From contig NZ_QGGB01000005.1 in the NCBI RefSeq assembly GCF_003150675.1, positions 186,001-250,000 of the forward strand: 64,000 nt of DNA. The letters run 5' to 3'. The notes below the pieces were generated by a model, which worked only from the letters and a program-made list of their open reading frames with translations, was not told the DNA's origin and did no database searches. Source of the DNA: Rhodohalobacter mucosus (GTDB taxonomy: Bacteria > Bacteroidota > Rhodothermia > Balneolales > Balneolaceae). Positions 5,791 through 60,058 of the stretch are shown piece after piece (the first letter of the stretch is position 1; the number at the start of each line of letters is the position of its first letter). A program made the position numbers and the translations under genes.

Positions 5791-5831
5791 TAAGGATTCA
5801 CGAGAGATGACATGAAATTATACAAATCCGT

Positions 5832-23236: not shown

Positions 23237-24112
23237 ATGAAACAGATAATGATACTTACAGCCGCGGTATTGCTGCTGCTGCCGCTCTATGCCAACGCCC
23301 AGCCCGAAGTGCCTATTGAGGAGTGGACAGGAAAAACTATTCTACTGGTAGGGGCACATCCGGATGACGATGCCGGGCGGCACGGAACTTTGGCGATGCT
23401 GCAGGAGAATGGCAATGATGTCTATATCATGCTGCTTACAAACGGCAATGTGGGTACCCGCGACAGAAAAATGACGCGTCAGCGGCTCGAGAAAATCCGA
23501 CGGCATGAGCAGCTCAATGCGATGAACCACATCGGCCTGCCGGCCGAGAACTATATCAATCTCGGGTATACCGACGGCATGGTGGAATTTGCCGATAAGG
23601 AGGAGCTGGTGAAGCGTATGGTGTGGTGGTACAGGAAGCTTCAGCCTGATGTGCTGATTGCATTTGAGCCCGGTTACAGGTATCAGCGCTGGCATAAGGC
23701 GGACCACAGGGCAGCAGCCTACCTGGCCGTTGATGCAGCCCGCGCTGCGGAATGGCACCTGATTTTTCCCGAACACCTGCACCAGGAAGGGCTTGAGCCT
23801 GTCCGCATCAATGAATACATGTTCTGGGGTTCGGAAGGGAATAACATGACCGTTGACATTTCGGACTACCGCGAGCAAAAAATTCAGTCCAGAATGGCGT
23901 ACCTGAGCCAGTTTTCTGAGACGGGCAGAAGCAATTACCCGGGCAACAGCGAAGACTATTTTATGACGCTGGATGATCTGCCGGCGGAGGAGCGGCGCGC
24001 CTACATGGATCGTTTCCGCAATAGCACCGGTGATACGGAAAGCTTTCGCTATTACAGGGGTGCTCCGGACGGTGTGGGTTCGGGTCCCGCACTCGGGCAA
24101 AGAGAATATTAA
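23237..24112 (+). CDS. Secreted PIG-L (LmbE) family deacetylase
   Basis: The 291-residue protein has a signal peptide (LLLLPLYANAQ) and the zinc-binding AHPDDD motif (His41, Asp43, Asp44) at the start of the fold, with the downstream WHKADHRAAAY supplying the third ligand region. PIG-L enzymes remove N-acetyl groups from GlcNAc-containing sugars or related compounds; the signal peptide places this one in the periplasm or outside, unlike BshB or MshB of thiol biosynthesis. It starts the putative amino-sugar locus and is followed by a terminator-like hairpin at 24156. Confidence 0.85.
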   Translation: MKQIMILTAAVLLLLPLYANAQPEVPIEEWTGKTILLVGAHPDDDAGRHGTLAMLQENGNDVYIMLLTNGNVGTRDRKMTRQRLEKIRRHEQLNAMNHIGLPAENYINLGYTDGMVEFADKEELVKRMVWWYRKLQPDVLIAFEPGYRYQRWHKADHRAAAYLAVDAARAAEWHLIFPEHLHQEGLEPVRINEYMFWGSEGNNMTVDISDYREQKIQSRMAYLSQFSETGRSNYPGNSEDYFMTLDDLPAEERRAYMDRFRNSTGDTESFRYYRGAPDGVGSGPALGQREY

Positions 24113-24155
24113 TCAAAAGCCCAGCCCGAATATTTATACGCGGAATGTTAAACCG

Positions 24156-24189
24156 GGAGAGGCCGTTTCCGGACGGCTCTCCTTTTTTT
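24156..24189 (+). terminator. Intrinsic terminator after the PIG-L gene
   Basis: GGAGAGGCCGT pairs with ACGGCTCTCC (one bulged G) around a TTCCGG loop, followed directly by TTTTTTT. It lies 44 bp beyond the stop codon. Confidence 0.8.
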
Positions 24190-24350
24190 ATGAGCGAAAT
24201 TTTTTTAATAGCTGCCTCATGAATGCATCAACTCCATCTTGGTTTTCAGAATCGATCTGATTAGGTTCTTTTTTACCGCCCAAATGCCGCTGACAGGGGA
24301 ATCGTAAACAGTACCATATTACATCATATCATCATTTATTTAATTCGTAC

Positions 24351-26261
24351 ATGGCAAATCACACAGAGCATCCCGGTTTAACGATTTTTGAAAAAATTGA
24401 AACAACGGTCTATCCGGATGCAAGGGAAGCGTCGGTAAAGGTGGCATCCGATATTGCAAACCTCATCCGGGCGCGAAATCAGATAGGCCAGAATACGGTA
24501 CTGGGTCTCGCTACCGGCTCCACGCCTATCCGAGTGTACAGTGAACTGGTGAGGCTGCATAAGGAGGAAGGACTCAGTTTCAGACGGGTGATCACCTTTA
24601 ACCTGGATGAATACTATCCCATGCAGCCCGAAGAGTTACAGAGCTATGTCCGTTTTATGCGTGAGCACCTTTTTGATCATATTGACATACCGGATGAGCA
24701 AATACACATTCCGGACGGCACACTGACAAGGGAAGAAGTGTACGAATACTGCGCAGAATATGAGAGGAAGATCAGCGAGGCGGGCGGTCTCGATGTTCAG
24801 ATTCTGGGGATTGGCCGTACGGGGCATATTGGATTCAACGAGCCGGGTTCCATCGAAAAGACACGCACAAGACTGGTAACGCTGGATGAACTCACGCGCG
24901 CCGATGCAGCTCCCGCATTTTTCGGAGAAGAGCACGTTCCGCGAAGGGCTATCACCATGGGGGTTGGTACCATCCTGAAGGCGAAGAAAATTTACCTGAT
25001 GGCGTGGGGCGAAGCGAAGGCTCCCATTGTTCGCAGAGCCGTTGAAGGGGAAATATCGGAGAAGGTTCCCGCCACCTTTCTGCAGAAGCATGACAATATT
25101 AAGGTAATTCTGGATGAACCGGCCGCTTCCGAATTATCAAGACGAAAAACACCGTGGCTGGTGGGTCCGGTGGACTGGGACGACCGGAAGATTCGCAAAG
25201 CGGTGAACTGGCTCAGTCTTTCCATAGGCAAGCCGATACTGAAACTTACCGATGAGGATTACAACCAAAACGGAATGAGCGACATTGTTACGGACTACGG
25301 CCCCGCATACAATGTGAACATCCGTGTATTCAACCAGGTTCAGCACACCATCACGGGCTGGCCGGGAGGCAAACCCAATGCCGATGACTCCAATCGTCCG
25401 GAGAGGGCTGAGCCGTTTCCCAAACGTGTGCTTATCTTTTCACCGCACCCCGACGATGATGTGATTTCGATGGGAGGGACACTGATGCGCCTTGTTGAGC
25501 ACGGTCACGAGGTGCACGTAGCTTATCAGACAAGCGGAAATATTTCCGTTTATGACGATGAAGCGCTCAGATATGCAGATTTTGTTTCGCTTTACAGTAC
25601 AGGCAAAGAGGAAAAAGAGCTCTATGCAAGACTGGTTGACTCCGTGGAAAAAAAGAAGCCGGGCGATACGGACAGCGATCGGATGCTGGAAGTGAAAACA
25701 AAGATACGGAGGGCGGAGGCTCGTGCGGCCTGCAGGTATGCGGGAGTAAAAGAGGAGAATATCCATTTTCTGGAAATGCCTTTCTATGAAACCGGCAGGG
25801 CGAAAAAGAATGAGCTGAGTCAGAAAGACCTGGATCTTATAACCGGTATCCTGAAAAAAGTGAAGCCTCACCAGGTGTATGCGGCTGGAGATTTGTCGGA
25901 TCCGCATGGTACGCACAGGATCTGCTGGGAGGCAATTCATGAATCCCTGAACTCACTGGAAAGTGAATCATGGATGGATGAGTGCTATGTATGGCTCTAC
26001 CGGGGTGTATGGCAGGATTGGGACGTAAGTGAAATTGATATGGCGGTACCGCTCAGTCCGGGTGAAAGACTCAGAAAGCGGCGTGCCATATTCAAGCACG
26101 CATCTCAAAAGGATCAGCCGAAATATCCGGGTTCGATGAGCCGTGAATTCTGGATGATTGCCGACGAACGGACCATCAAAACAGCTGCAACGTACGACAG
26201 CCTGGGCCTTGCCGAATACGATTCCATTGAAGGATTTTCAAGGTGGGAAGCCCAATTGTAA
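24351..26261 (+). CDS. nagB: Fusion of glucosamine-6-phosphate deaminase (NagB-like) and PIG-L deacetylase domains
   Basis: The 636-residue cytoplasmic protein joins a NagB-type isomerase/deaminase domain (about residues 10-280; ATGSTPIRVY, FNLDEYYP, GRTGHIGFNEPGS) to a PIG-L domain (from about residue 362; FSPHPDDDVISMGGT and DLSDPHGTHR). Such fusions occur in Bacteroidota. In E. coli numbering Asp72, His143 and Glu148 are kept (Asp86, His159, Glu164), but Asp141 is replaced by Thr157. The enzyme would deaminate glucosamine-6-P to fructose-6-P and may deacetylate a GlcNAc-type substrate, if both domains are active. It lies between the secreted PIG-L gene and the sigma/FecR/SusCD genes. Confidence 0.87.
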   Translation: MANHTEHPGLTIFEKIETTVYPDAREASVKVASDIANLIRARNQIGQNTVLGLATGSTPIRVYSELVRLHKEEGLSFRRVITFNLDEYYPMQPEELQSYVRFMREHLFDHIDIPDEQIHIPDGTLTREEVYEYCAEYERKISEAGGLDVQILGIGRTGHIGFNEPGSIEKTRTRLVTLDELTRADAAPAFFGEEHVPRRAITMGVGTILKAKKIYLMAWGEAKAPIVRRAVEGEISEKVPATFLQKHDNIKVILDEPAASELSRRKTPWLVGPVDWDDRKIRKAVNWLSLSIGKPILKLTDEDYNQNGMSDIVTDYGPAYNVNIRVFNQVQHTITGWPGGKPNADDSNRPERAEPFPKRVLIFSPHPDDDVISMGGTLMRLVEHGHEVHVAYQTSGNISVYDDEALRYADFVSLYSTGKEEKELYARLVDSVEKKKPGDTDSDRMLEVKTKIRRAEARAACRYAGVKEENIHFLEMPFYETGRAKKNELSQKDLDLITGILKKVKPHQVYAAGDLSDPHGTHRICWEAIHESLNSLESESWMDECYVWLYRGVWQDWDVSEIDMAVPLSPGERLRKRRAIFKHASQKDQPKYPGSMSREFWMIADERTIKTAATYDSLGLAEYDSIEGFSRWEAQL

Positions 26262-26494
26262 GCGGCTGATATACAACTGCAAATCACTCTTTTTTCTTTC
26301 AAAGAACACACCATATTGCACCTGATTGCTGAAAACGTTATTTAAAAGAGATAACTGCCATTCATCCTTTTTTCGCCGGTTAAGATCGCTGCCTGTTCCA
26401 AATTTATGCTCATAACATTCTCTTGGCTGTTAATCCGTGACGGGGAAGAGCGCTCCTCTGAAACCGTTATCTCTTTTTGTTCGAATCAGGATTC

Positions 26495-27040
26495 ATGAAA
26501 CACCCTACAGAACGACATCAGAAACTTGTTGAAAGGATCAGGGCTGGTGACCGTCAGGCCTTCGAGCAGCTCTTTCAGGCCTACTACTCCAGGCTCTGTG
26601 TTTTTTCAAACAGCTATGTGAAGTCGCTTGATCTTTCCAGGGATGTTGTTCAGGAAGTGTACATTAAAATCTGGGACAATAAAGAGAACTTTTACATCCG
26701 GCAGTCTCTCAAGGCATATCTGTACCAGGCCGTCAGGAACCAATCACTCAACTTTTTGCAACAAAAGAAGCAGATGGAGAGGCTTGAAAAACGTCTCAAA
26801 AGACAGCAAGAGATCTCCGAATCGAGCCGTACAGAAGAGTTCAATACGGAGGAGCTTTCTGAAAAGGTATGGAGGCTTGTAGAGCAGCTGCCGGAGAGAA
26901 GGCGTACGATATTTATACTGTACCGAAAACACGGACTGTCCTATGCCGAAATTGCGGAAGTGCTCAACATTGCCAGGAAAACCGTGGAAAATCAGATGGG
27001 TAAATCACTCAAATTCCTCCGGGAAAATCTGGATCTGTAG
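26495..27040 (+). CDS. ECF (RNA polymerase sigma-70 family) sigma factor
   Basis: The ATG at 26495 (MKHPTERHQ) is preferred to a TTG six codons upstream. The 181-residue protein shows region 2 (DVVQEVYIKIWDNKENF) and region 4 helix-turn-helix (GLSYAEIAEVLNIARKTVENQ), as in the FecI-like group of Bacteroidota ECF factors. The downstream FecR gene encodes its probable anti-sigma factor, and the SusC protein carries an STN signalling domain, so an outer-membrane substrate signal most likely releases this sigma factor to transcribe the susCD genes. Confidence 0.92.
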   Translation: MKHPTERHQKLVERIRAGDRQAFEQLFQAYYSRLCVFSNSYVKSLDLSRDVVQEVYIKIWDNKENFYIRQSLKAYLYQAVRNQSLNFLQQKKQMERLEKRLKRQQEISESSRTEEFNTEELSEKVWRLVEQLPERRRTIFILYRKHGLSYAEIAEVLNIARKTVENQMGKSLKFLRENLDL

Positions 27041-27443
27041 GAACCGGGGAGCAATCAGCTATCAGCTTGTTTGGATTGTGCCTCAGGCTTGCTGTCAGAG
27101 ACCTGAAGCCCCTTCCCAGCACCGTCTTTATGTCGAGGTGTTATTGGGAAGATTATCCAGATGAGATGCTGGGAGATCCCTCGATTCGATCTCCGTCGGC
27201 TGACGGATCTCTCACTCGGGATGACAAGCTGCAAACGGGACAGTGACGGTGCATAAGGATCCCAAATTCATGAATTTAACAATCTGCGCCGCCTCAGCAG
27301 GCTAGTTACTTCCAACGCCGCAGGCGTTGAATATCAATAGCCCCGGGTGAAGCCCGGGTTGGAAAATGGGCTACCCCATTGACCCCGAGGCGCGATCATT
27401 AACACCGCCCGGATCTCTGCCGAGGGGTTACGGAGAGGATTTT
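27041..27443. other. Intergenic region with REP-like hairpins and direct repeats
   Basis: No gene is supported. The stretch has features of dispersed intergenic repeats: a GGGATCTC-type segment around 27170-27230 (CTCGATTCGATCTCC, CTCACTCGGGATGACAAG) and two adjacent hairpins at 27314-27358. Whether copies exist elsewhere in the genome cannot be judged from this window. Confidence 0.45.
27314..27358 (+). repeat. Two adjacent REP-like hairpins
   Basis: AACGCC-GCA-GGCGTT (27314-27328) is a perfect 6-bp hairpin and CCCGGG-TGAAG-CCCGGG (27342-27358) a second perfect one, 13 bp apart. Tight GC hairpins in an intergenic position resemble REP/BIME elements mobilised by RAYT transposases, but no RAYT gene is in the window. 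Confidence 0.5.
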
Positions 27444-27555
27444 GATGGACGATGAGCGATGGGCGATGGACGATGGACGACTTGTGACTGGCGATGGACG
27501 ATGGACGACTTGCGACTGTCGATTGATGATTGATGATTTATTATTGATTATTTGT
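27444..27555 (+). repeat. Long heptanucleotide repeat tract (GATGGAC / GACTTGn / GATTGAT units)
   Basis: Sixteen consecutive 7-bp units keep one phase: GATGGAC (five exact copies), GATGAGC, GATGGGC, GACTTGT, GACTGGC, GACTTGC, GACTGTC, GATTGAT twice, GATTTAT and two TATT-type units. A higher-order block (two GATGGAC, GACTTGY, GACTGGC/GACTGTC) is itself repeated. It ends about 110 bp before the FecR start codon. Confidence 0.85.
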
Positions 27556-27663
27556 TTCTGCCTGCACCCCGCCTCAATCAAATCCATCTGCAGAAAATTT
27601 TTTAAAAAGAATGGGGGGAGGGCTGCTGTAAGCTGTCTACACTCCAGTAATACAGAAAAATTT

Positions 27664-28731
27664 ATGAGCAATACTGACAACATTTGGGCTTTGATAGCGC
27701 GACATCACGACCACTCACTGAGTGAAACGGATGCCCGTAAGCTGGAAGAATGGCTTGAAGCCAGCAACGAGAACAGAAGAATATTTCATTCGGTTGACCG
27801 CATCTGGAAAGCCTCAGAGGAGAAGCAGGGCGAATCGATTATAGGTGAGCTCAATCTTGAGAAAGACTGGAACTGCGTATCCGGAAAGATTAACCGCAAC
27901 CCGGAAGAAAAACGAGCCAGGATACGTCACTTCAGGAAAATAAGAAAACGCCAGCAGTTCTTTTCCAACCTGTTAAAGGTTGCCGCCCTCGTACTGGTTG
28001 CTTTTACATCCGGCATACTTACCCTGAAATATGCTCCGCAGCAGTCTGATGAAAATAGTTATCAGGCTCCCGTATTCAATGAAATTGTAACGTACGACGC
28101 GGAAAGGGCCGGTATCGAGCTGGGCGATGGTTCCCGTGTCACACTCAATGCAGCAAGTAAACTAACAATTCCCGATCGATTCAGCAGTGATACAAGGGAA
28201 GTTACGCTGCAGGGGCAGGCTTTTTTTGATATTAAACGCGATAAGAACCGGCCATTTCACATTAAAGCAGGAAATGCGGTTGTAGAGGTGGTGGGTACGT
28301 CATTTGACGTTCGCTATTATGAAAATGAAAACCTCATCCAGGTTGTGGTTAAAACCGGTACGGTTGAGCTCCGGAATAATAATGATAAGGAGAACAGGCT
28401 TATTGTAAATGAGGGATATAAAGGTACGATAAATACTGAAAACGGGCGTCTGACACTCGAAATGTATCAGGATCCGGACTCCTATTTTGGCTGGATGGAT
28501 GGGCGCATCGTATTCAGAAATGCAGATTTGGAGGATGTATTTAAGGAACTCGAGCGATGGTATGATGTGGATATCACCATCAATAATGAGGTTCAGGGGC
28601 AGCTGAAGGATAAATTCACTGCAAACCTGAAAACAAGGTCCGTTACAGAAGTAATGGACGTAATCCGTGAGTCAATGAACATAAATTATGAAGTATTGGA
28701 GGACGGGGATCGCATTCTCGTCAAAAGGTAA
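27664..28731 (+). CDS. FecR family anti-sigma factor / transmembrane regulator
   Basis: The start is placed at the ATG at 27664 (MSNTDNIWALIARHH); the 222 bp of open frame upstream is repeat DNA with no family features. The 355-residue protein has an N-terminal cytoplasmic domain with a Trp-containing helix (KLEEWLEASNENRR), one transmembrane helix near residues 100-118 (LLKVAALVLVAFTSGILTL), a periplasmic FecR domain (GDGSRVTLNAASKLTIPD, EVTLQGQAFFDI, VEVVGTSFDVRYY) and the C-terminal DUF4974 domain. It should hold the sigma factor inactive until SusC signals. Confidence 0.92.
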   Translation: MSNTDNIWALIARHHDHSLSETDARKLEEWLEASNENRRIFHSVDRIWKASEEKQGESIIGELNLEKDWNCVSGKINRNPEEKRARIRHFRKIRKRQQFFSNLLKVAALVLVAFTSGILTLKYAPQQSDENSYQAPVFNEIVTYDAERAGIELGDGSRVTLNAASKLTIPDRFSSDTREVTLQGQAFFDIKRDKNRPFHIKAGNAVVEVVGTSFDVRYYENENLIQVVVKTGTVELRNNNDKENRLIVNEGYKGTINTENGRLTLEMYQDPDSYFGWMDGRIVFRNADLEDVFKELERWYDVDITINNEVQGQLKDKFTANLKTRSVTEVMDVIRESMNINYEVLEDGDRILVKR

Positions 28732-28800
28732 AACGTGTGAACAGCACAACATAACAGGATGGAGTAAGTCCAAACAAAAAACAAAAAAAGCACCAAGCGT

Positions 28801-31800
28801 ATGAAAACCGTTACGTTGATAAAAGTTATTCCGGTTTTGGTGGGGATGTTATTAAGTACAGCGCTCTCACCGGTTCAGGGATACACTCAAAAACAGTCGT
28901 CAGAATCGTCGTTGCCCGATCTGGTTACGTACTATTCTGTAAAAGATTACAGCTCGCAAATACCGGAGTTAACCAATAAAATTTCCGTCAGTCTGTTTGA
29001 TGTGACAGTTTCGGAAGCGCTTTTTAGAATTGCTGACGAGGCAAATCTTGAAATCGCATTCGATGAAAGCGCACTTTCCGGCAATGACAGGGTAACCATC
29101 AGTGAAAGAAGCATCAGCGTTGCCCAGGCATTGGAAAGAGCTCTTTCAGGAACAGGTTTTGAGCCGGTTATCACTTCCAGAAGACAGATCATGGTGAAAG
29201 AGAGCCTTCCGGTTGAGGAGGCAGAGGAAGACATACCGGTTGTCATTACCGGTGAAGTGGTCGACGCCGATACGGGCGAGCCTCTGATGGGTGTAACTGT
29301 ATTTGTTGTGGGAACTCAGATAGGTACCACAACCAATATGGATGGCCGGTACGAAATTGATGTTCCCGACGAGAACTCCGTACTTGCCTTTTCATACGTA
29401 GGATATGTGCGGCAGGAGTTTACCGTAGGCGACAGAACCGAGATCAATGTTGAAATGGAATCGGACGTTGCCCTTCTTGATGATGTTGTTGTTGTCGGAT
29501 ATGGTGTTCAGAGGCGGACCGAAGTAACGGGTGCTGTTACATCCATCCGTGCGGAAACCATTCAAAGCGCACCGGTTTCCAGCTTTGAAAATGCCCTGCA
29601 GGGTCGTCTGGCGGGCGTTAACGTAGCAGAATCAACGGGTGAACCTGGTGCCGCTCCTCAAATTATTATTCGGGGTGTAGGGTCCATTTCTGCAGGTAAT
29701 GAGCCTCTGTATGTAATTGACGGTGTGCCTGTTTCGCAGAACTTCAACTTGCAGCCAAATGTAGGATCACAGAGATCCAGCTTCGCTGCTCCGAAAGTGA
29801 ACCCGCTGGCAACCATCAACCCGAATGATATTGAATCTATTGAGGTGCTCAAGGATGCGTCTGCAGCTGCTATTTACGGCTCAAGAGGATCTAACGGCGT
29901 TATTTTAATTACCACGAAGCGTGGTCGCACCGACAGCCCGCCACAAATTAATGTTCGTTCATTTGTAGGTGTTCAATCGGCATTTAACGTTCCTGAATTA
30001 ATGAATGCCGAAGAATTAATTGAATACACCAAAGACGCGAGAAATAATACCTATTTGCGTCAGCAGGACCCGACCAACCCCGCAAGTCCGTTCTATAACC
30101 CGCTTTATGATCCTGATACCAATGCGGGTCGTGAAGCTTCCGGCGCAACAGGAACTCACCTGATACCGGAAGCTTATGTAAACTGGGACGGAACCGATAC
30201 CGACTGGCTCGACCTGGTACTGGATACCTCCACGCTTCAAAATTATGATATGTCTGTTAGCGGTGGCGGTACCAACTTTACCTATTTCGTGGGAGGCGGT
30301 TTCATGGATCAGACCGGTATTATCGACGGATCCGGATTCAACCGATATTCACTGAATGCAAATTTTACATCCGATTTGTCTGAAAAATTTCAGATAGGTC
30401 TGGGACTGAACGCAGCATTTACCGAGCATGACCGTAAAGCGGCGAATGCTCCCTATTTCGGTTCTCCACCGGGTATCATCTACTCGGCCATGACGCAATC
30501 GCCTGTCGTTGATCCGTTCAATCCCGACGGAACCTACCGGCAGCAGGACGGAAGCCATAACGATCTGGGTGGTGCTACCACTACAACCAACCATCCGCTG
30601 GCCGTTCGTGATTTTATCGACGAGCGTATAAACAACAACCGCATATTCGGTAACATTTACGGTACCTATAACATCATGGAGAATCTGGCATTTAAGTCTC
30701 TCCTGGGTTATGATATTGATAACTTCCAACGTTCTTTTTACCAGGGTACTCAGCTCTCTTACAGGGGCGGTGCTCCGCGGCCATTCGCTGAGTCAACTTC
30801 CGCACTTGGATTTAACTGGCTCTGGGAAAACACGCTGACCTATCAAACCACGTTTGGTGAAGATCACAGGCTCGACACGGTTGTGGGTTTCACCGCACAG
30901 AAGCAGCGAGACGAGCGAAACCGGGTTATTGCACAGAATTTCCCGGATGACCAGGTTAAAACCGTAAATGGAGGCCAGATTACCGGCGGTGACCAGTTTA
31001 TTGAAGAGTGGTCTCTGGTAAGTTACTTGGCACGTGCCAACTACGTATTCAAGAATAGATATTTGTTAACTGCAACCATTCGATCTGACCGATCATCCAG
31101 ATTCGGGGTGGATAATCAAACAGGTATCTTTCCGTCTGCATCACTTGGCTGGCAGATGACTCAGGAATCATTCATGCAGGATCAAACCCTGTTTAATGAA
31201 CTTAAGCCCAGGATCAGTTACGGTGTTACAGGTAACTTCCTGATCCCGAATTATGGATCTATTGGATTGATTTCATCCAACAATTATGTATTTGGTGATC
31301 AACTTGTATCAGGCGTATCTCCTGTGACTTTAGGAAACAAGGAGCTTACGTGGGAAACCACCAGACAGCTTAATATGGGTCTTGATTTTGCTGTACTGGA
31401 AGATCGCATTTATGGATCCTTTGACTACTACATCAGTAATACCGAGGATCTGCTGCTTGAAGTAAACATCCCGGCTGTAACAGGGTTCACACGTGCACTT
31501 ACCAACATTGGTGAGGTAGAGAACAAAGGATTTGAGTTCCAGGTTACATCCAGAAATATGACCGGCAACTTTAACTGGTCAACGGATTTCAACTTTGCGA
31601 CCAACACCAACGAAGTGAAAAAACTGGGACCGGAAGGAGACCCGATCCTTGTATCAGGAGCTGCAGGTGTTCGTCACATTACACAGGTAGGCTCCCCGAT
31701 CGGTTCCTACTATGGTTATGTGGTTGAAGGGATCTTCCAGACACAGCAGGAAATTGATAGTGCCCCTGAGGATCTGGAAGGCAATCCCACACCGGGCGAC

Positions 31801-32376
31801 TTCCGATTTAAAGACGTGAACGGCGACGGTGTGATTGATGCCAATGACCGGACTGTGATCGGCAGTTATCATCCCGACTACACGTGGGGAATCACCAACC
31901 GGTTTAACTGGAGAAATATTGATTTCAGTTTCTTCTTCCAGGGTGTTGAAGGCCGTGAAGTCCTCAATCTGACGGCCCGTCATCTTCGAAACGGTGAGGC
32001 GAACTTTAACAGCTATGCCGTTTTGAACGATCGATGGAGATCTCCAGAGGATCCGGGCAACGGGAAGCACCCAAAAGCTGAGCGAAACTCAGGCGGAAAC
32101 AACAACCGTCCGTCCTCCTACCAGGTAGATGATGGTTCGTACATCAAGCTGAGAAATATTACGCTTGGATATAATGTGCCTCAAAACCTGATTGGAAACT
32201 TTGCGAGAAGTGTGAGACTGTATGGATCGGTAACCAACGTTGCGATTTGGACCAACTACATCGGTTTCAACCCCGAGGTAAACCTTTCGCAGGGTAACGG
32301 ACTGACACCGGGTGAGGATTACGGTGCTTATCCGCTATCTAGAGCATTCCAGTTTGGAATCGACATCTCCTTTTAA
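28801..32376 (+). CDS. SusC/RagA-type TonB-linked outer membrane protein with STN signalling domain
   Basis: The 1191-residue protein carries a signal peptide, an STN (secretin/TonB N-terminal) domain around residues 60-125 (ISVSLFDVTVSEALFRIADE), a carboxypeptidase-regulatory-like domain (TGEPLMGVTVFVVGTQIGTTTNMDG), a TonB-box-like DDVVVVGYG, a plug with IIIRGVGSISAGNEPLYVIDG, and a long beta-barrel ending in FGIDISF. SusC proteins import oligosaccharides or peptides with TonB energy. The STN domain marks it as an ECF/FecR signalling transporter, matching the two genes upstream. SusD follows after 16 bp. Substrate is unknown; the neighbours point to an amino-sugar glycan. Confidence 0.95.
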   Translation: MKTVTLIKVIPVLVGMLLSTALSPVQGYTQKQSSESSLPDLVTYYSVKDYSSQIPELTNKISVSLFDVTVSEALFRIADEANLEIAFDESALSGNDRVTISERSISVAQALERALSGTGFEPVITSRRQIMVKESLPVEEAEEDIPVVITGEVVDADTGEPLMGVTVFVVGTQIGTTTNMDGRYEIDVPDENSVLAFSYVGYVRQEFTVGDRTEINVEMESDVALLDDVVVVGYGVQRRTEVTGAVTSIRAETIQSAPVSSFENALQGRLAGVNVAESTGEPGAAPQIIIRGVGSISAGNEPLYVIDGVPVSQNFNLQPNVGSQRSSFAAPKVNPLATINPNDIESIEVLKDASAAAIYGSRGSNGVILITTKRGRTDSPPQINVRSFVGVQSAFNVPELMNAEELIEYTKDARNNTYLRQQDPTNPASPFYNPLYDPDTNAGREASGATGTHLIPEAYVNWDGTDTDWLDLVLDTSTLQNYDMSVSGGGTNFTYFVGGGFMDQTGIIDGSGFNRYSLNANFTSDLSEKFQIGLGLNAAFTEHDRKAANAPYFGSPPGIIYSAMTQSPVVDPFNPDGTYRQQDGSHNDLGGATTTTNHPLAVRDFIDERINNNRIFGNIYGTYNIMENLAFKSLLGYDIDNFQRSFYQGTQLSYRGGAPRPFAESTSALGFNWLWENTLTYQTTFGEDHRLDTVVGFTAQKQRDERNRVIAQNFPDDQVKTVNGGQITGGDQFIEEWSLVSYLARANYVFKNRYLLTATIRSDRSSRFGVDNQTGIFPSASLGWQMTQESFMQDQTLFNELKPRISYGVTGNFLIPNYGSIGLISSNNYVFGDQLVSGVSPVTLGNKELTWETTRQLNMGLDFAVLEDRIYGSFDYYISNTEDLLLEVNIPAVTGFTRALTNIGEVENKGFEFQVTSRNMTGNFNWSTDFNFATNTNEVKKLGPEGDPILVSGAAGVRHITQVGSPIGSYYGYVVEGIFQTQQEIDSAPEDLEGNPTPGDFRFKDVNGDGVIDANDRTVIGSYHPDYTWGITNRFNWRNIDFSFFFQGVEGREVLNLTARHLRNGEANFNSYAVLNDRWRSPEDPGNGKHPKAERNSGGNNNRPSSYQVDDGSYIKLRNITLGYNVPQNLIGNFARSVRLYGSVTNVAIWTNYIGFNPEVNLSQGNGLTPGEDYGAYPLSRAFQFGIDISF

Positions 32377-32392
32377 TCGCAAATAAGAAACT

Positions 32393-33808
32393 ATGGTGAA
32401 TTCAATGAAACGTTTAAAAAACATATTGCTGGTAATACCCGCATTACTGATTCTGGTTTCTTGTGGAGAAGATTTCACAATACTGGCTCCGCAATCAGAC
32501 CGTAATGTTGAGAACTTTTACAGAACGGATACAGACTTCGTAGTAGCCATCAACGGCGCCTATGCAGGGCTGGCTTCCAATGATGCATATGGCAGAAACT
32601 ACATGCTGCTGAATGAAATGAGAAGCGATAATATGGATAACGGCGGTGGTGCAACCGGTCTGGCCGAATCGCTTGAGCGGATCACACTGTTCGACGAGCT
32701 TACAACGGCGAGCGAACTGGAAAATACCTGGGCCGGCGGATATGCGGTGATTGCACGCACCAATACAATCCTTAGCAGGCTTGATGAGGCTACACTGGAT
32801 GACCCGGCATTAGGTGATCGAATCAGGGGCGAGGCACTGTTTATCCGCTCACTGGTCTATTATAATTTAGCAGTAGCGTTTGGAAACATACCACTCCAGC
32901 TAGAAGAGGTCACATCTCCAAGTGTAACTATCAATCAGGTGTCTGCAACCGAAATTTACAATCAGATTTCGGATGATTTGGAAACCGCAGAGGGTTTGCT
33001 TCCCGCATCCTACTCCGGTAGTGACATAGGGAGAGTAACCAGCGGTGCGGCAGCTACGCTTCTTGGTCTTGTAGAACTGACTAACGGCAATTCCGGTGCT
33101 GCTGAAGCTGCACTTCGTCGTGTTGTACAGTCTAACCAGTACGAGTTGGTGCCCGACTTTGCTGATATCTGGGGTATCGGTAATGAAAACAATATCGAGT
33201 CGATCTTTGAGATTCAGTATAAGTCAGGCGGAGCCGGAGTTGGCAGCGGTTTTACCGAGTACTACTCTCCGGACAATGCGATTTCAGGTGGTGTAGGTGG
33301 CGGAAATGCTCCTCAGACACCAACTGATGACTTGCTGGCAGCTTATGATGCAGGTGACGATCGTTTCATCGATGGATTCGGCATAACCTCCGGCGGTGAT
33401 GATTATCTCACGAAGTACGACTCTAATCCTACAATCGCTTTTGATTCGGATGTCAACTTTATTGTATTCCGGTATGCTGACGTATTGTTGATGCTCGCAG
33501 AAGCTGTTGGCGAATCACCGGAAGGATGGGGTTTGATCAATGAAGTACGTGAAAGATCCGGTCTGGTTGATCCCGCAGAAGGTCTGGGGCTACCATATAA
33601 TGAAGTATTGCTCCTGGAGCGACGCCGCGAATTTGCGGGCGAAAATAAGCGATGGCCCGATCTTAAACGATTTGGTGTCGCACAACAGATAATGGCCGAT
33701 TTTCTTTCGGATGAGGGTGTGACCGAATCCGATGTTAGATTGCTCTATCCGATCCCGCAGAGAGAGATAGATGCATCACCGGGTGCGTTGACTCAAAATC
33801 CACTGTAA
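32393..33808 (+). CDS. SusD/RagB-type nutrient-binding lipoprotein
   Basis: The 471-residue outer-membrane lipoprotein begins with a signal and lipobox LILVSCGED. It keeps the SusD framework: the N-terminal SusD-like part (NFYRTDTDFVVAINGAYAGL) with TPR-like helices, and the C-terminal RagB segment (YADVLLMLAEA, LLLERRREFAGENKRWPDLKR). It binds the ligand on the surface and lids the SusC barrel. An ATG four codons downstream (MKRLKNILL) could be the start; either gives a normal signal. It is cotranscribed with the susC gene. Confidence 0.94.
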   Translation: MVNSMKRLKNILLVIPALLILVSCGEDFTILAPQSDRNVENFYRTDTDFVVAINGAYAGLASNDAYGRNYMLLNEMRSDNMDNGGGATGLAESLERITLFDELTTASELENTWAGGYAVIARTNTILSRLDEATLDDPALGDRIRGEALFIRSLVYYNLAVAFGNIPLQLEEVTSPSVTINQVSATEIYNQISDDLETAEGLLPASYSGSDIGRVTSGAAATLLGLVELTNGNSGAAEAALRRVVQSNQYELVPDFADIWGIGNENNIESIFEIQYKSGGAGVGSGFTEYYSPDNAISGGVGGGNAPQTPTDDLLAAYDAGDDRFIDGFGITSGGDDYLTKYDSNPTIAFDSDVNFIVFRYADVLLMLAEAVGESPEGWGLINEVRERSGLVDPAEGLGLPYNEVLLLERRREFAGENKRWPDLKRFGVAQQIMADFLSDEGVTESDVRLLYPIPQREIDASPGALTQNPL

Positions 33809-33866
33809 GCAGACCGGCCATTTATAAATAGTTAATTATATCAATGCCTATTCGTTCAGTTGATAT

Positions 33867-33896
33867 TTCCCCGCATGCCTTTGGTATGCCGGGGAA
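33867..33896 (+). other. Stem-loop between the susD and PIG-L genes
   Basis: A long stem (TTCCCCG CATGCC with GGTATG and CGGGGAA, one bulged C, loop TTT) lies 58 bp after the susD stop. No T tract follows, so it is more likely an mRNA-stabilising or attenuation hairpin lowering expression of the downstream genes relative to susCD. Confidence 0.6.
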
Positions 33897-33949
33897 GTAC
33901 AACAAAGCGAATGAAAAACATCAATTAAAATAATATCAACGGAGTATAC

Positions 33950-34843
33950 ATGAAGTACCTCATCTTAATTTCCTTTATGCTGGCTGCGGCTCTTCCGGTA
34001 CGCGCCCAGATCAACACATCGGCCGACACGCCGCTTCGTGTGATTGCAATTTTTGCACATCCGGATGATGCAGAGTCAAAAATGGGTGGAACTGCAGCTT
34101 TGATGGCTGAAATGGGACATGAAGTAAAGTTTCTCTCCCTTACCAACGGCGATGCAGGACATCATGAAAAAGGAGGCGGAGCACTGGCCAGGATACGGAG
34201 AGAAGAATCTCATGAAGCTGCAGAACGGCTGGGAATTGCAGAGTATGAAGTCTTTGACAATCACGATGCTGAACTCCTCCCCGAACTGCATATACGCATG
34301 GATGTGATTCGGGCCATTCGTGAATGGAATGCGGATGTGGTTCTCGGATTGCGGCCCAACGACTATCACCCCGATCACCGGAATGCGGGCAAGCTTGTAA
34401 TAGATGCTTCCTATATGGTGATTGTGCCGAATGTGGCTCCGGATACGCCTCCTGTGGCGAACAACCCGGTATTTCTTTATATGCAGGACAGATTTTCAAA
34501 GCCGAATCCATTCAGCCACGATATCGTGGTGGGTATCGATGATGTGATTGAAACCAAGCTTGCGGGACTGGATGCGCACACATCACAGATGTATGAATGG
34601 CTCCCCTGGACTGCAGGACGCCTTGATGAGGTGCCCGAGGATCCGGATGAAAGGCTTGACTGGCTCCGTCAGCGATGGATCAACCGTGAGATGTCTGATG
34701 AACAGCGTGCCGGACTGGAAAAATGGTATGGTCCGGAAAAAGCTTCGCAGTTCAGATATGCGGAATCATTTGAAATTGCAGAGTACGGTTACAGGCCAAC
34801 AGATGATGAAATTCGAATGATTTTCCCAATGCTGGGTAATTAA
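33950..34843 (+). CDS. Secreted PIG-L (LmbE) family deacetylase
   Basis: The 297-residue protein has a signal peptide ending PVRAQ and the zinc motif FAHPDDAES (His37, Asp39, Asp40), followed by LTNGDAGHHE, ARIRREE and YHPDHRN. It is more typical of Bacteroidota LmbE-like proteins than the first copy at 23237. It would deacetylate an N-acetylated sugar outside the cytoplasm, perhaps before or while the SusCD pair imports it. The region before the ATG is purine-rich (ACGGAGTATAC). It is separated from the susD gene by a hairpin and followed by another before the ROK gene. Confidence 0.88.
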   Translation: MKYLILISFMLAAALPVRAQINTSADTPLRVIAIFAHPDDAESKMGGTAALMAEMGHEVKFLSLTNGDAGHHEKGGGALARIRREESHEAAERLGIAEYEVFDNHDAELLPELHIRMDVIRAIREWNADVVLGLRPNDYHPDHRNAGKLVIDASYMVIVPNVAPDTPPVANNPVFLYMQDRFSKPNPFSHDIVVGIDDVIETKLAGLDAHTSQMYEWLPWTAGRLDEVPEDPDERLDWLRQRWINREMSDEQRAGLEKWYGPEKASQFRYAESFEIAEYGYRPTDDEIRMIFPMLGN

Positions 34844-34863
34844 CCTAATCTTCATAACGTACC

Positions 34864-34896
34864 AAAGCCGGTGAGTGTGATGGCTTTCCGGCTTTT
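34864..34896 (+). terminator. Inverted repeat between the PIG-L and ROK genes
   Basis: AAAGCCGG pairs with CCGGCTTT around a 16-nt loop and ends in TTTTCT. It is a weak terminator or an internal processing hairpin. Confidence 0.5.
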
Positions 34897-34974
34897 CTAA
34901 CCATAAGTGAGCCAGACGAATATATCACCATATCCAGTAAAGTGGCTACATCATTTCATTAAGGAGATCTGTAT

Positions 34975-35847
34975 ATGACACAACATGCACCAATAATTGG
35001 GATTGATCTGGGAGCCACCAATATCAGGGTTGGATTGGTTGAGGATGGCAGGCTTAATGCACTTGAACGAAGGGAACTTCCGGAGGATAAATCCGTGATG
35101 TCTGTTCTCAATGTGATGACCGAAATGATAGAATCCGTTGATAACGGAGCGGAGGAAATCGGAATCGGTGTTCCCAGCGTCGTGGATTCGGATGAGGGCA
35201 TTGTGTACGACGTCCAAAATATCCCCGGCTGGGAAAAAGTACACCTGAAAGACCTTCTGGAAGAGAAAACGGGAAAAAATGTATCCCTAAACAACGATGC
35301 AAATTGTTTTGCCCTGGGAGAGTACATGTTTGGGCATGGCAGAGGCAAACAAAACATGATTGGTGTGATCATCGGCACGGGGTTCGCGGGCGGTATTATA
35401 CTGGACGGCAAAATATATGAAGGCCGTAACTGCGGAGCGGGTGAGTTTGGGATGATTCCCTACAAACAATCGATCCTTGAACACTACTGCAGCGGCCAGT
35501 TTTTCAGTCGCCTGGTGGGAGTGCGGGGTGAAGAGGTATACCAAAGGGCCGTAAACAATGATCCCGCATCCAAAAAACTCTTCTTTGAATTCGGCGGCCA
35601 CGTGGCTGAAGCGATTAAGATAGTACTCTACACGTTTGATCCGGAGCTGATCATAATGGGAGGATCGGTAAGCTCCACCTTTCCGCTGTTCCGGGAGGGG
35701 TTTGAAAGTGAATTAAAAAGTTTTGGGTATCCCAACTCGTTAAAAAACGTTGAAATCATGGTTTCCAAAACCGAGCACGTTGCGGTGCTCGGTGCAGCGG
35801 CCTTGTGTGCCAGCAGCAATGTAAACGTCAATAAAACAGAAAAATGA
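34975..35847 (+). CDS. ROK family sugar kinase
   Basis: The 290-residue protein has the phosphate-binding GIDLGATNIRVGLV at the N-terminus, the catalytic-aspartate segment LNNDANCFALGE and IGTGFAGGIILDG. The usual ROK zinc motif (GH followed by C-x-C-G-x-x-G-C) is replaced by GAGEFGMIPYKQSILEHYCSGQFF, so the structural zinc site is altered or absent, as in a Bacteroidota subgroup. The GGSV motif near the C-terminus is intact. It likely phosphorylates a hexose or amino sugar, fitting the PIG-L / NagB context. AAGGAGATC precedes the ATG, and the last codons overlap the next gene by four bases. Confidence 0.88.
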   Translation: MTQHAPIIGIDLGATNIRVGLVEDGRLNALERRELPEDKSVMSVLNVMTEMIESVDNGAEEIGIGVPSVVDSDEGIVYDVQNIPGWEKVHLKDLLEEKTGKNVSLNNDANCFALGEYMFGHGRGKQNMIGVIIGTGFAGGIILDGKIYEGRNCGAGEFGMIPYKQSILEHYCSGQFFSRLVGVRGEEVYQRAVNNDPASKKLFFEFGGHVAEAIKIVLYTFDPELIIMGGSVSSTFPLFREGFESELKSFGYPNSLKNVEIMVSKTEHVAVLGAAALCASSNVNVNKTEK

Positions 35848-38525
35848 CTCTTCGCTTATTCAATTTCATGTTCATTCTGCTTGTTGCTGCACTGCTTGGA
35901 AGCTGCAGCAGCTCCATGGCACAGGATGGCAGCGTTACCGTAACGGTTCAGCATGCGGAACCGGGCATCCCCGTTAAATTCGGGCTGCCGTTTCCAAAAG
36001 GGGCATTACAATCACCCGACCATGTGCGCGTACTGAATGCAAGGGGAGAGGAGATCGCCTCGCAAAAAACGGAAGTGACGACATGGGAACCTGCGGATAC
36101 AAGCATTAAGTGGCTTTGGGTTTTCTTCTTTGCAGATGAATCCGAAGAGTATACGGTTGAGTACGGAGACAGCGTGCGTCAGAGTGTATTTACGGAGAAC
36201 CCGATCATTTTTAAGAACAATCAGCGCGAAAGCGGATTTGCAGAGATCAATACCGGCACGCTGCATATCAGGGTCAATAAACGCAATGAATCCGGTTTCA
36301 TCGACAGGGTGCAGTTCAACAGCGAAATGAACGGTTTTGATGAAGAGCACACCATTCTAACCGGTATTGCGGGACGAGGCACGTTTCTTGACCTTCTTGA
36401 CGATGCGGGCGTGGATACATCAAAAGCTGTGGTTCATCAGCATTTTATTGAGAAAGGATCCGGCCCCATGCATGCCATCCTGAGGGTGGAAGGCGAATAC
36501 GAATACGAACGCGAGGGACATGAAAATGCTCCGTTTGTAACCTACCTGCACGCGTATGCCGGCAAATCTTATGTAAAAATACTCCATACGGTTACCTATA
36601 CCGGCAAACCTGATAAAAGCAGTCCGCTGTATGGCCGGCAGCATGAGGATATCGGAACGCAAACTGAAAAGCTTGTGGATGAGGAAGTACGCAGCCGTGA
36701 TCCGGGTCTTACGCAACCCAATGACCGGATCCGTTCTATGGGTTTTGGACTTCAATATCATCTTGAAGAGAATCAACAAATAACCACATCCCTGCTCGAT
36801 GGAGACTGGTGGGAAGAAGGGGAGGCTAGATTATTTGAATATTCACTCGGTGAAGGAGAGAAAGCATCTCTGTTTCAAACCGGCCCGGATCCCAAAGGAA
36901 TTCCCCCTGTTGCCAATTCCGGTGCGGATACCCGTATCGATGAAGGTTTTGTAGCCAGGGTTTCCGCAGGAGATGTTGTGACAGAGTCAGAAAAATCGGA
37001 AGGATGGATATCGCTGACCGATGGAAGGCGCAGCATCAGCATCGGAATGCGCAATATGATTGTTGAGTATCCGAATGAACTGGCAGTCAATTCCGCAAGA
37101 AACCTGTTACACGCTTACTCCTGGTCACCCAATGAGATTCCAATGGGTTTTGAACGTGCCGATACGGAGCCTGATGGAGGCATGGTGGGTAATTTTGCCC
37201 AGGGCCTTACCAAAACCACCGAAATGGCAATCAGCTTCCACGACGGAGAGGCTGATGAAGCTGCAATCCGTACCTCGCTGAACCTGGTTTTAAATCCCCC
37301 TGTAGCCCATGCGGGTGCCGATTGGTATAGCGATTCAGGTGTTTATGGTACATTTGCGGGCACAGATCACAATTTTCAGGGTCTGGAGCGCAGCGTGGAA
37401 TATAAAATGAAATGGATGCTCTTTAATCGCGACTGGGAGCCATGGTACGGTACATTCGATTACGGTGATGTGAAAAATTATTTCTTCAATTATGAATGGT
37501 ATCAGTGGGCCAACAACGAACCCGCACAGGATTTTCAGTGGTGGTTCAATTTCATGAGGAGCGGAAATCCGGAATATTACGATATGGCCAGGGATGCCAG
37601 CCGGCATACAATGGATGTGGACAATACGCACTGGCCCGTACCCCGCGATTATCGGGGTGACACCAACCGTTCCCTCGATTGGTTTGACCACGCGGCCCAG
37701 GATGAAATCTGGCCCTATGTGGGCATGGGCCGCCGCCATGCAGGGCAGCAGTGGATCTCCATGCTCTCCGCACACGTCTGGGTTCCGGGCTGGATTGCTT
37801 CCTACTACCTGGACGGGTACCACCGCGGACTGGATGTTGCCAAACTTACCGGCGACTACTACGTAAGGAGAATATTTGGTGGCCACGGACTCACAGGCCG
37901 AAGGCTCTACCTGTCAATCTGGAATCTGGCTGAACTGTACGACGCCACCAAGGATTATGATTATGGTAAGGAGCTGGACGACCGGGTAAATATCTTTTTG
38001 AAACTGCAGCGAGAACAGGGAGGCAGGGCCAATATCGACCGGTACGGATATTCGCAAAACTACATCTCACACGGGCTTTCCAAATACCTTCAGATGAGGG
38101 ATCGTCCGGACGTGGAACGCGCATTGGTAACTCATGCCAGAAGCATGTACTACAATCCGCCGCTTGATCATGATATGGAGTCCTATCTCTCAAGCATTCA
38201 TATGCTGTTGGTTGGGTATGACCTCACCGGCGAAGAGAACTATCTGCTGGAAGCCTGCAGTCGTTCAGGTCATCTGGTTATGGATGAACTGCCGCAGCCG
38301 TTTGAATCCTATTCAACCCAGCGTGACCTTGCTGATGCGCTCGAGGGCGCAAGCAATCTGCCAGGACAGGGTGAAGGCCCGTCTTTTCGTGGTGGCAGCC
38401 CGATATGGACATTTACCGGCGGGCTGCGCATTTATGGCTGGACTCATGCCTTCAATGTAGCCTACACCATAGATCGCCTCAAACAGCGGGCCAATACATC
38501 GGGGCTGGATTGTGCAGTCAGGTGA
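35844..38525 (+). CDS. Large secreted lipoprotein resembling YetA / PL26 exo-lyases (PcRGLX-type)
   Basis: The ATG overlaps the ROK stop (ATGA). The 893-residue product has a signal with LLGSCSSS lipobox. The N-terminal part reads like the RIFT-barrel of PcRGLX/YetA proteins (HAEPGIPVKFGLPFPKGALQ), the middle is a beta-rich domain, and the C-terminal half (from about residue 480) is helical and aromatic (WYQWANNEPAQDFQWWFNFM, GMGRRHAGQQWISML, HIDVGGHG-like segments), consistent with an alpha/alpha-toroid. Characterised relatives are rhamnogalacturonan exo-lyases; whether this acts on that polymer is not shown. The stop codon TGA coincides with the first base of a heptamer repeat, so the natural C-terminus may have been altered. 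Confidence 0.65.
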   Translation: MTLRLFNFMFILLVAALLGSCSSSMAQDGSVTVTVQHAEPGIPVKFGLPFPKGALQSPDHVRVLNARGEEIASQKTEVTTWEPADTSIKWLWVFFFADESEEYTVEYGDSVRQSVFTENPIIFKNNQRESGFAEINTGTLHIRVNKRNESGFIDRVQFNSEMNGFDEEHTILTGIAGRGTFLDLLDDAGVDTSKAVVHQHFIEKGSGPMHAILRVEGEYEYEREGHENAPFVTYLHAYAGKSYVKILHTVTYTGKPDKSSPLYGRQHEDIGTQTEKLVDEEVRSRDPGLTQPNDRIRSMGFGLQYHLEENQQITTSLLDGDWWEEGEARLFEYSLGEGEKASLFQTGPDPKGIPPVANSGADTRIDEGFVARVSAGDVVTESEKSEGWISLTDGRRSISIGMRNMIVEYPNELAVNSARNLLHAYSWSPNEIPMGFERADTEPDGGMVGNFAQGLTKTTEMAISFHDGEADEAAIRTSLNLVLNPPVAHAGADWYSDSGVYGTFAGTDHNFQGLERSVEYKMKWMLFNRDWEPWYGTFDYGDVKNYFFNYEWYQWANNEPAQDFQWWFNFMRSGNPEYYDMARDASRHTMDVDNTHWPVPRDYRGDTNRSLDWFDHAAQDEIWPYVGMGRRHAGQQWISMLSAHVWVPGWIASYYLDGYHRGLDVAKLTGDYYVRRIFGGHGLTGRRLYLSIWNLAELYDATKDYDYGKELDDRVNIFLKLQREQGGRANIDRYGYSQNYISHGLSKYLQMRDRPDVERALVTHARSMYYNPPLDHDMESYLSSIHMLLVGYDLTGEENYLLEACSRSGHLVMDELPQPFESYSTQRDLADALEGASNLPGQGEGPSFRGGSPIWTFTGGLRIYGWTHAFNVAYTIDRLKQRANTSGLDCAVR

Positions 38526-38587
38526 GGCAGAAGACAGAAGGCAGAAGGCAGAAGTGAAAAGGCAGAAGTGAAAAGGGAGTAATGAAA
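38525..38587 (+). repeat. Heptanucleotide repeat, units AGGCAGA and AGTGAAA
   Basis: Nine 7-bp units in one phase: AGGCAGA, AGACAGA, AGGCAGA twice, AGTGAAA, AGGCAGA, AGTGAAA, AGGGAGT, AATGAAA. The first A is the last base of the TGA ending the YetA-like gene. Confidence 0.85.
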
Positions 38588-38645: not shown

Positions 38646-38719
38646 ACCCTGCACCCTGCACCCTGCACCCTGCACCCTGCACCCTGCACCCTGCACCCTG
38701 CACCCTGCACCCTGCACCC
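38646..38719 (+). repeat. Heptanucleotide repeat ACCCTGC, ten perfect copies
   Basis: Ten exact consecutive ACCCTGC units plus ACCC. It is the purest heptamer array in the window and could be length-variable by replication slippage. Nothing between its units resembles CRISPR spacers. Confidence 0.95.
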
Positions 38720-60022: not shown

Positions 60023-60058
60023 AAAGATGAACCTCTGACCCGGGTTCATCTTTTTTTT
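60023..60058. terminator. Bidirectional intrinsic terminator between convergent genes
   Basis: AAAGATGAACC pairs perfectly with GGTTCATCTTT (11 bp, 9-nt loop) and is followed by a run of T on the plus strand and A on the other side, so it can terminate both the small secreted gene and the usher-like gene. Confidence 0.92.

Follow-up and report, generated by a model that had tools for sequence, protein, structure and literature searches.

A conserved SusCD cassette with secreted PIG-L deacetylases and a sister family of PL26 in Rhodohalobacter mucosus, and its possible role in amino-sugar scavenging

The 64,000-nucleotide stretch of Rhodohalobacter mucosus DNA analysed here (the window) holds nine same-strand genes at 23237-38525 (+) that belong to a cassette conserved in distant bacteria. 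We tentatively interpret it as a locus of the polysaccharide utilisation locus (PUL) type that scavenges a nutrient, namely a glycoside with both an amino sugar and a carboxylate, with a probability of roughly 0.45. The gene content and its conservation, the fold of a protein related to PL26, the near-absence of recognisable NagA from the host class and the linkage to transporters are the observations from which we infer the substrate and each of the reactions. The conserved core comprises one secreted PIG-L deacetylase, a ROK kinase, the SusCD pair and the PL26-like enzyme, joined in the majority of the other loci by a major facilitator superfamily (MFS) permease. A sequence-only reading of the window had named the genes in this place, and its assignments are borne out by domain matches over curated cut-offs, all on the + strand:

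23237..24112, +, PIGL1, secreted PIG-L/LmbE deacetylase of 291 aa, signal peptide by eye; PF02585 84.9 bits (cut-off 28.2)
24351..26261, +, NagB::PIG-L fusion of 636 aa, no signal peptide seen; NF002557 1000 bits (cut-off 384)
26477..27040, +, extracytoplasmic function (ECF) sigma factor; TIGR02985 158 bits (cut-off 126)
27664..28731, +, FecR-type anti-sigma factor; PF04773 67 bits (cut-off 24), PF16344 62 bits
28801..32376, +, SusC/RagA TonB-linked outer membrane transporter; TIGR04056 931 bits (cut-off 368)
32393..33808, +, SusD-like surface lipoprotein; PF07980 86 bits (cut-off 23), PF14322 80 bits
33950..34843, +, PIGL2, secreted PIG-L deacetylase of 297 aa, signal peptide by eye; PF02585 97.6 bits
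34975..35847, +, ROK sugar kinase; PF00480 157 bits (cut-off 22.9)
35844..38525, +, PL26-sister protein of 893 aa, lipobox-like LGSC by eye, putative exo-lyase; three PcRGLX domains

Conservation and layout of the cassette

Orthologues of the PL26-sister protein (46-70% identical) are present in 31 of the 195 genomes of the host class that we searched, and four further genomes hold only paralogues of 25-29% identity. The neighbourhoods of 26 of the 31 carriers were fetched (left out were the window's own genome, G013, G029, G151 and G159). Near the PL26-sister gene, these 26 loci hold a secreted PIG-L in 22 cases, SusC in 20, ROK in 17 and NagB or NagB::PIG-L in 15; the loci lacking a PIG-L are L049 and three that are short or lie at a contig end (L039, L063 and L066). 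Distribution within the genus is patchy, with the locus in 9 of the 22 own or same-genus genomes.

A scan of named genomes gave 77 loci with a PL26-sister protein of 41-71% identity, one of them from the genus relative Rhodohalobacter halophilus (L070). They span Balneolaceae, other Bacteroidetes families, KSB1, Caldithrix and Acidobacteriota. Counting within 10-kb flanks, with contig ends uncorrected and each family named from one scanned member, we found SusD and MFS clusters at 52 of the 77 loci each, ROK at 51, SusC and PIGL2 at 49 each, FecR at 34 and ECF at 33. Rarer companions are DASS transporters (29), NagB forms (14), PIGL1 (9), DctA-like transporters (9) and a long PIG-L protein (8). 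Within the same-strand runs of 74 loci, the corresponding numbers are 51 for SusD, 48 each for SusC, PIGL2 and MFS, 47 for ROK, 33 for FecR and 26 for ECF, followed by DASS (20), PIGL1 (9), NagB (9), DctA-like (8) and long PIG-L (6). The KSB1 locus L078 carries a near-whole set in one run, with FecR, SusC, SusD, PIGL1, PIGL2, MFS, ROK, PL26-like enzyme, NagB and DASS; two other KSB1 loci are also near-whole, L104 without DASS and L136 with a run that lacks FecR. In the Blastocatellia locus L098, a different TonB-type barrel occupies the place of SusCD. The pairwise identities of the partner proteins track those of the PL26-sister enzyme with r 0.68 to 0.91, a correlation that ignores host kinship.

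Conservation of the gene set, which the sequence-only reading had proposed as a check, extends to distant bacteria in both the 77 named loci and the class loci. That reading had also placed three PIG-L domains at the centre of the locus. All three are present, but they are not constant: PIGL1 and the NagB fusion are variable parts of the cassette.

The layout in the window agrees with a PUL, with the hallmark tandem of susC and susD only 16 bases apart. From FecR onwards the intergenic gaps measure 69, 16, 141, 131 and -4 bases, the last being the 4-base overlap of the PL26-sister gene with ROK; the gaps upstream, from PIGL1 to FecR, are 238, 215 and 623 bases. The 623-base gap holds a heptamer repeat array. 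An open FecR frame begins at 27442, but this position adjoins the array, and 27664 is likely the start codon. SusC has an STN domain (PF07660, 31 bits against a cut-off of 28.4), the domain through which ligand sensing proceeds in ECF/FecR/STN-SusC trios. As in PULs under ECF/anti-sigma control, SusC with STN, SusD, ECF and FecR thus lie in one run. Unlike these systems, the window's locus has no glycoside hydrolase (GH), as the sequence-only reading had recognised: a Pfam/NCBIfam scan found none among the nine proteins, leaving the PL26-sister protein and the PIG-L proteins as glycan-degrading candidates. A further difference is that the cassette holds a sugar kinase, a deaminase and, elsewhere, a carboxylate transporter.

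All tandem arrays in the window that score at least 60 are heptamer-based, and each is located within the locus or at its end:

27444-27552, GATGGAC array
38525-38587, AGGCAGA array
38646-38719, ACCCTGC array, 10.6 perfect copies

Two families with a metallo-beta-lactamase fold occur at 9 and 7 of the 77 loci. In Saprospiraceae and Flavobacteriaceae these hydrolases lie 3' of the PL26-like gene (L081, L090, L106, L113, L114, L133 and others), and a PRK00685 member (250.6 bits) is found at window positions 38931-39638, just downstream of the locus. In two loci (L076:5350-6549 and L102:6617-7846) an FAD-dependent amino acid oxidase directly precedes PIGL2; its best model is N-methyl-L-tryptophan oxidase, at 227-232 bits and below the cut-off of 257.

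The PL26-sister protein

By sequence, the 893-aa protein belongs to a sister family of PL26 and is not a close member. The YetA/PL26-like label given to it earlier therefore stands as regards the three PcRGLX domains and the fold, but not as regards close membership. The second, third and first PcRGLX domains match weakly and over partial stretches, with 42.7, 34.4 and 28.1 bits, against cut-offs of 23.5, 23.8 and 22.1. In an alignment of 49 sequences that includes the window protein, PF21345 and PF21346 match all 49 members and PF19501 matches 37 (E 0.001). A GH127 model is touched weakly by 5 of the 49, with a best E of 2.7e-05.

Sequence similarity to PcRGLX itself is weak (E 6.5e-05). The AlphaFold2 model of the window protein (pLDDT 91.5), in contrast, resembles PcRGLX (PDB 5XQG/5XQ3) in its three-domain fold along the whole length, at only 15-18% identity. 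Foldseek reports an E of 1.2e-31 and a TM score of 0.65, and comparison of the model with 5xqg_A by VIA yields a Z of 30.7 over 711 residues with a root-mean-square deviation of 2.9. The next VIA entry outside PcRGLX is a sugar epimerase with a Z of 24.4, which covers residues 509-888, the toroid alone. When profiles of the 49 family members and of ten canonical PL26 sequences from the class are compared, the probability is 100, the E 5.5e-48 and the identity 23% over 601 columns; the ten represent nine genes, since L163 repeats one of L059. Invariant in both groups are W534, Y535, D542, E559, D563, W567, R572, H588, H596 and R631. The shared invariants are thus concentrated between W534 and R631, in the first toroid half, with Y654, R661, G685 and Y792 beyond. 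The second, C-terminal half has diverged and carries invariants of the sister family's own, for example R686, R687, R733, Y736, Q738 and E779.

Canonical PL26 enzymes are clearly distinguishable within the host class. Their 11 matches to PF21346 at E 1e-30 score 330-575 bits, whereas the window protein reaches 34 bits, and canonical genes occur in 6 of the 195 genomes, none of which is among the 31 with a PL26-sister enzyme. Four canonical loci were fetched, and neighbours were scanned in L058 and L059, with L057 and L060 left out. L058 is a clear pectin locus with PL4-like, Pel9A-like, GH88, GDSL and glucuronyl-esterase-like genes; L059 holds GH31, GDSL esterase and sulfatase genes. The locus in the window has amino-sugar genes and no pectinases. 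Because canonical PL26 resides in other genomes, and in one case in a pectin locus, the sister family probably has a different job.

Deacetylases, deaminase, kinase and transporters

All three PIG-L domains of the locus contain the HxDD+H metal motif and match PF02585, with 85, 76 and 98 bits for PIGL1, the fusion and PIGL2, respectively; the genome as a whole has six PIG-L domains over the cut-off. In PIGL1 the motif reads HPDD at 41 and HKADH at 153, and its nearest solved structure is the diacetylchitobiose deacetylase 3wl4 (E 2.3e-17). PIGL2 is the constant PIG-L of the cassette (49/77 loci), and across these 49 loci its HPDD, RR pair and HPDH are conserved to at least 95%. The best solved match of its model (pLDDT 89.5) is again diacetylchitobiose deacetylase (Dac), with a Z of 24.3. 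By sequence, too, PIGL2 is closer to diacetylchitobiose deacetylase (75 bits) than to BC1534/BshB (61 bits). We considered the PIG-L subfamily as a guide to the substrate and abandoned it as undecisive, with Dac in first place but tied with LnmX, GalB and BC1534/BshB within 1 Z in the fold comparison.

In the archaeal chitin route, the PIG-L deacetylase Dac acts first, followed by cleavage of the sugar and by kinase and deaminase steps. The cassette is reminiscent of this route in having a deacetylase of the same family ahead of cleavage and kinase/deaminase steps. It differs in that its PIG-L is secreted, SusCD is present and a PL26-like enzyme takes the place of the exo-glucosaminidase.

Eight loci (L107, L111, L112, L124, L098, L100, L105 and L118) have a long, secreted-looking protein with an N-terminal PIG-L near the PL26-like gene, which replaces PIGL2 in Pedobacter and two acidobacterial loci. 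In the genus-distant locus L047 (1469-2329), PIGL1 is split into two frames of 181 and 81 aa and may be broken.

The NagB half of the fusion (residues 25-263) matches TIGR00502 with 251.7 bits (cut-off 236.9) and carries DEYY at 86 and GHIGFNE at 158. NagB::PIG-L occurs in 155 of the 195 class genomes, which rules it out as an invention of this locus; 20 of 22 genus genomes have two copies, and the window's own genome and G193 have one. NagB was recruited to the cassette in two forms. The fusion is found in L042, L047, L056 and seven loci that belong to the genus of the window, and a separate gene in L050, L051, L053, L061, L062, L066 and KSB1. An amino-sugar pathway is favoured because of this double recruitment. 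Import and use of an N-acetylated sugar conjugate, as proposed in the sequence-only reading, is thereby partly supported, together with the conservation of the set.

The locus shares a ROK kinase and a NagB deaminase with the NagA-NagB pathway of GlcNAc. It differs in that PIG-L domains lie outside the cell and fused to NagB, and that the genome has no recognisable NagA, the best match to TIGR00221 being 27.7 bits against a cut-off of 225.65. Across the class, NagA exceeds this cut-off in 5 of 195 genomes and reaches E 1e-40 in 13, in a scan that a divergent NagA could escape. MurQ, which makes GlcNAc-6-phosphate, is present in 185 class genomes, including the window's own. Deacetylation may thus precede phosphorylation, or the fused PIG-L may do the work of NagA, and both may hold. 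Given a class with MurQ, almost no NagA and a widespread NagB::PIG-L, we regard the fused PIG-L as a candidate class-wide GlcNAc-6-phosphate deacetylase in place of NagA. The ROK kinase has N-acetylmannosamine kinase as its nearest solved structure (E 3.6e-27).

The one MFS permease that was scanned is of the FHS type and falls below the NagP, FucP and GluP cut-offs. A carboxylate transporter lies near 38 of the 77 loci: DASS in 29, DctA-like without DASS in 8 and LctP in 1. The DctA-like cluster occurs at 9 loci in total, and its scanned member, from L112, is DctA (NF002461, 563 vs 513 bits). L085 has a lactate permease together with a glycerate kinase. In the window's own genome, a DASS protein 73% identical to that of a genus relative is encoded away from the locus.

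Taken together, these genes suggest the following pathway. FecR and the ECF factor would sense a ligand through the STN domain of SusC, and SusCD, judged by family, would bring the compound into the periplasm. Secreted PIGL2, joined by PIGL1 where present, would take off the N-acyl group, in keeping with its catalytic motif. The PL26-sister enzyme, exo-acting by homology, would cut the glycosidic bond beside the carboxylate; its fold, and the first toroid half that it shares with PL26, make beta-elimination the probable mechanism. The amino sugar set free would cross the inner membrane, in most loci presumably through the FHS-type permease, after which ROK would phosphorylate it and NagB would convert it to fructose-6-phosphate by deamination. 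With deacetylation outside the cell followed by ROK and NagB, NagA would not be needed; if the sugar is instead imported in acetylated form, GlcNAc-6-phosphate may be deacetylated by the PIG-L half of the fusion. The acid part would be imported by the carboxylate transporter, DASS or DctA.

Candidate substrates and wider meaning

Several observations weigh against an amino-sugar glycoside with a carboxylate. NagB forms are found near just 14 of the 77 loci from named genomes, a number lowered in part by flanks or contigs that end too early, and carboxylate transporters near only 38 of the 77. For the MFS permease, the best candidate in the window's own genome reaches 24% identity, short of a clear orthologue, and we dropped the permease from the pathway there. 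Three long class loci (L044, L045 and L052) gave no SusC/SusD match, and among the carriers of the PL26-sister enzyme NagA exceeds the cut-off in one (G133) and reaches 1e-40 in three. Profile and structure matches leave the specificity of ROK undecided, and GalB, which ties with Dac, has the PIG-L fold without being a deacetylase. The correlation of partner identities may partly reflect host kinship. A GH78 gene stands in line with PIGL2 in the class locus L052, a GH32 gene lies in one run, and GH88/105 genes are, if anything, commoner in carriers, which leans towards a uronate.

The GH32 gene came from a scan of the non-core genes of the 74 runs. These comprise 44 genes of at least 120 aa, of which 43 were scanned and L094:1036-1878, with unknown residues, was dropped; among the matches listed, which for 29 of these genes covered 25 of 32 families, the 43 show no other GH or PL family. 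Because the exo-enzyme stands without any endo-enzyme, the gene content suggests an oligomer or a small conjugate rather than a polymer as the substrate.

A locus for uronate-hexosamine oligosaccharides, such as glycosaminoglycan-like, teichuronic or bacterial capsule fragments, is the alternative that survives best, though we consider it unlikely. Here the PL26-sister protein would be an exo-lyase acting on the uronate, with the unsaturated uronate and the hexosamine handled by separate routes. PL26 chemistry acts on uronate, bacterial surface glycans with uronate-hexosamine repeats are widespread, and NagB, ROK and PIG-L would suit the hexosamine part. Moreover, GH88/105 is found in 6 of the 31 carriers and 13 of the 164 other class genomes (odds ratio 2.8, p 0.09), whereas KduI is equally frequent in both (3/31 vs 17/164, p 1.0). 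Against this, GH88/105 and KduI are both missing at E 1e-30 from 23 of the 31 carriers, the window's own genome among them, no partner depolymerase lies in the runs, and the carboxylate transporter would be left unexplained. The marker test is weak, since 3 of the 6 genomes with canonical PL26 also lack both and KdgF was outside the test, and we therefore no longer count the absence of these genes as strong evidence that a uronate is not the substrate.

The cassette might instead scavenge a small conjugate rather than a polysaccharide, namely a glucosaminyl-dicarboxylate such as glucosaminyl-malate from the bacillithiol of dead cells, which we rate as improbable. The secreted PIG-L would split the amide, as do BshB and Bca, the PL26-sister enzyme would eliminate the sugar from malate to yield glucosamine and fumarate, and DASS or DctA would import the C4 acid. 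This would account for runs without any polymer-cutting enzyme beyond the GH32 and for the DASS and DctA-type clusters, and beta-elimination beside the C4 carboxylate of malate would be lyase chemistry. The long PIG-L of L112 (833 aa, the sole one scanned) has mycothiol conjugate amidase Mca as its best match, at 45 bits and below the cut-off. The bacillithiol enzymes BshB and Bca belong to the PIG-L family and share its HxDD+H metal motif, but the PIG-L proteins here are secreted. Their scores against the BshB1 model TIGR04001, 82.3 and 111.8 bits, miss its cut-off of 182.5, and PIGL2 is nearer to diacetylchitobiose deacetylase than to BC1534/BshB. The position of Arg109, described alongside the metal motif as a substrate residue of BshB (PMC4101496), is a Tyr in PIGL2 by eye. 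The consulted passages of one bacillithiol paper gave no such chemistry, and L085 has the lactate permease and glycerate kinase instead. If this explanation were true, we would know of no lyase-fold enzyme earlier than the PL26-sister protein that acts on a glycosylated hydroxy acid, and of no uptake route earlier than this cassette that is dedicated to the remains of bacillithiol.

We also see little likelihood in a scavenger of muropeptides or chitin fragments, with the PL26-like enzyme acting on muramic acid or chitooligosaccharides. The resemblance of PIGL2 to diacetylchitobiose deacetylase and the presence of MurQ would fit, but MurQ is general to the class and not tied to the locus. In addition, no muramidase, chitinase or hexosaminidase appears among the matches listed for the non-core run genes, and chitin offers a lyase no carboxylate. 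Rhamnogalacturonan, the alternative substrate raised in the sequence-only reading, would make this a common pectin locus whose PL26 enzyme has diverged. This has the fold and domain match to PcRGLX and the alpha-rhamnosidase-like GH78 gene of L052 in its favour, but is highly improbable and was ruled out as our leading interpretation given the PF21346 scores, the confinement of canonical PL26 to six genomes outside the carriers, the neighbours scanned in L058 and L059, and the diverged C-terminal half of the toroid.

Elsewhere in the window, an FGE-sulfatase/DinB protein adjoins a histidine-specific methyltransferase (PF10017, 365 bits) at 4480-6773, a pair that resembles EgtB/EgtD of ergothioneine synthesis. 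At 9446-10192, a PF00351 match of 134 bits marks a biopterin-dependent aromatic amino acid hydroxylase. On the - strand, 60057-63872 encodes a 1271-aa protein with its best SPOR match at 1110-1170 and no other Pfam match at E 1e-4.

Uptake and use of an amino-sugar glycoside bearing a carboxylate thus remains our preferred, tentative interpretation. The presence of the cassette in several phyla and the strong conservation of its enzyme suggest that the nutrient is a common one. Among the matches listed in our literature search, which covered titles and the beginnings of abstracts and had most subscription papers outside its scope, we found no paper on the gene set and no description of this nutrient's breakdown route. 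The separation of the PL26-sister family from pectin degradation matters for automatic annotation, in which its members risk being named rhamnogalacturonan lyases. Finally, the comparison exposes a class-wide gap between MurQ (185/195 genomes) and NagA (5/195), for which NagB::PIG-L (155/195) may supply the missing deacetylase.

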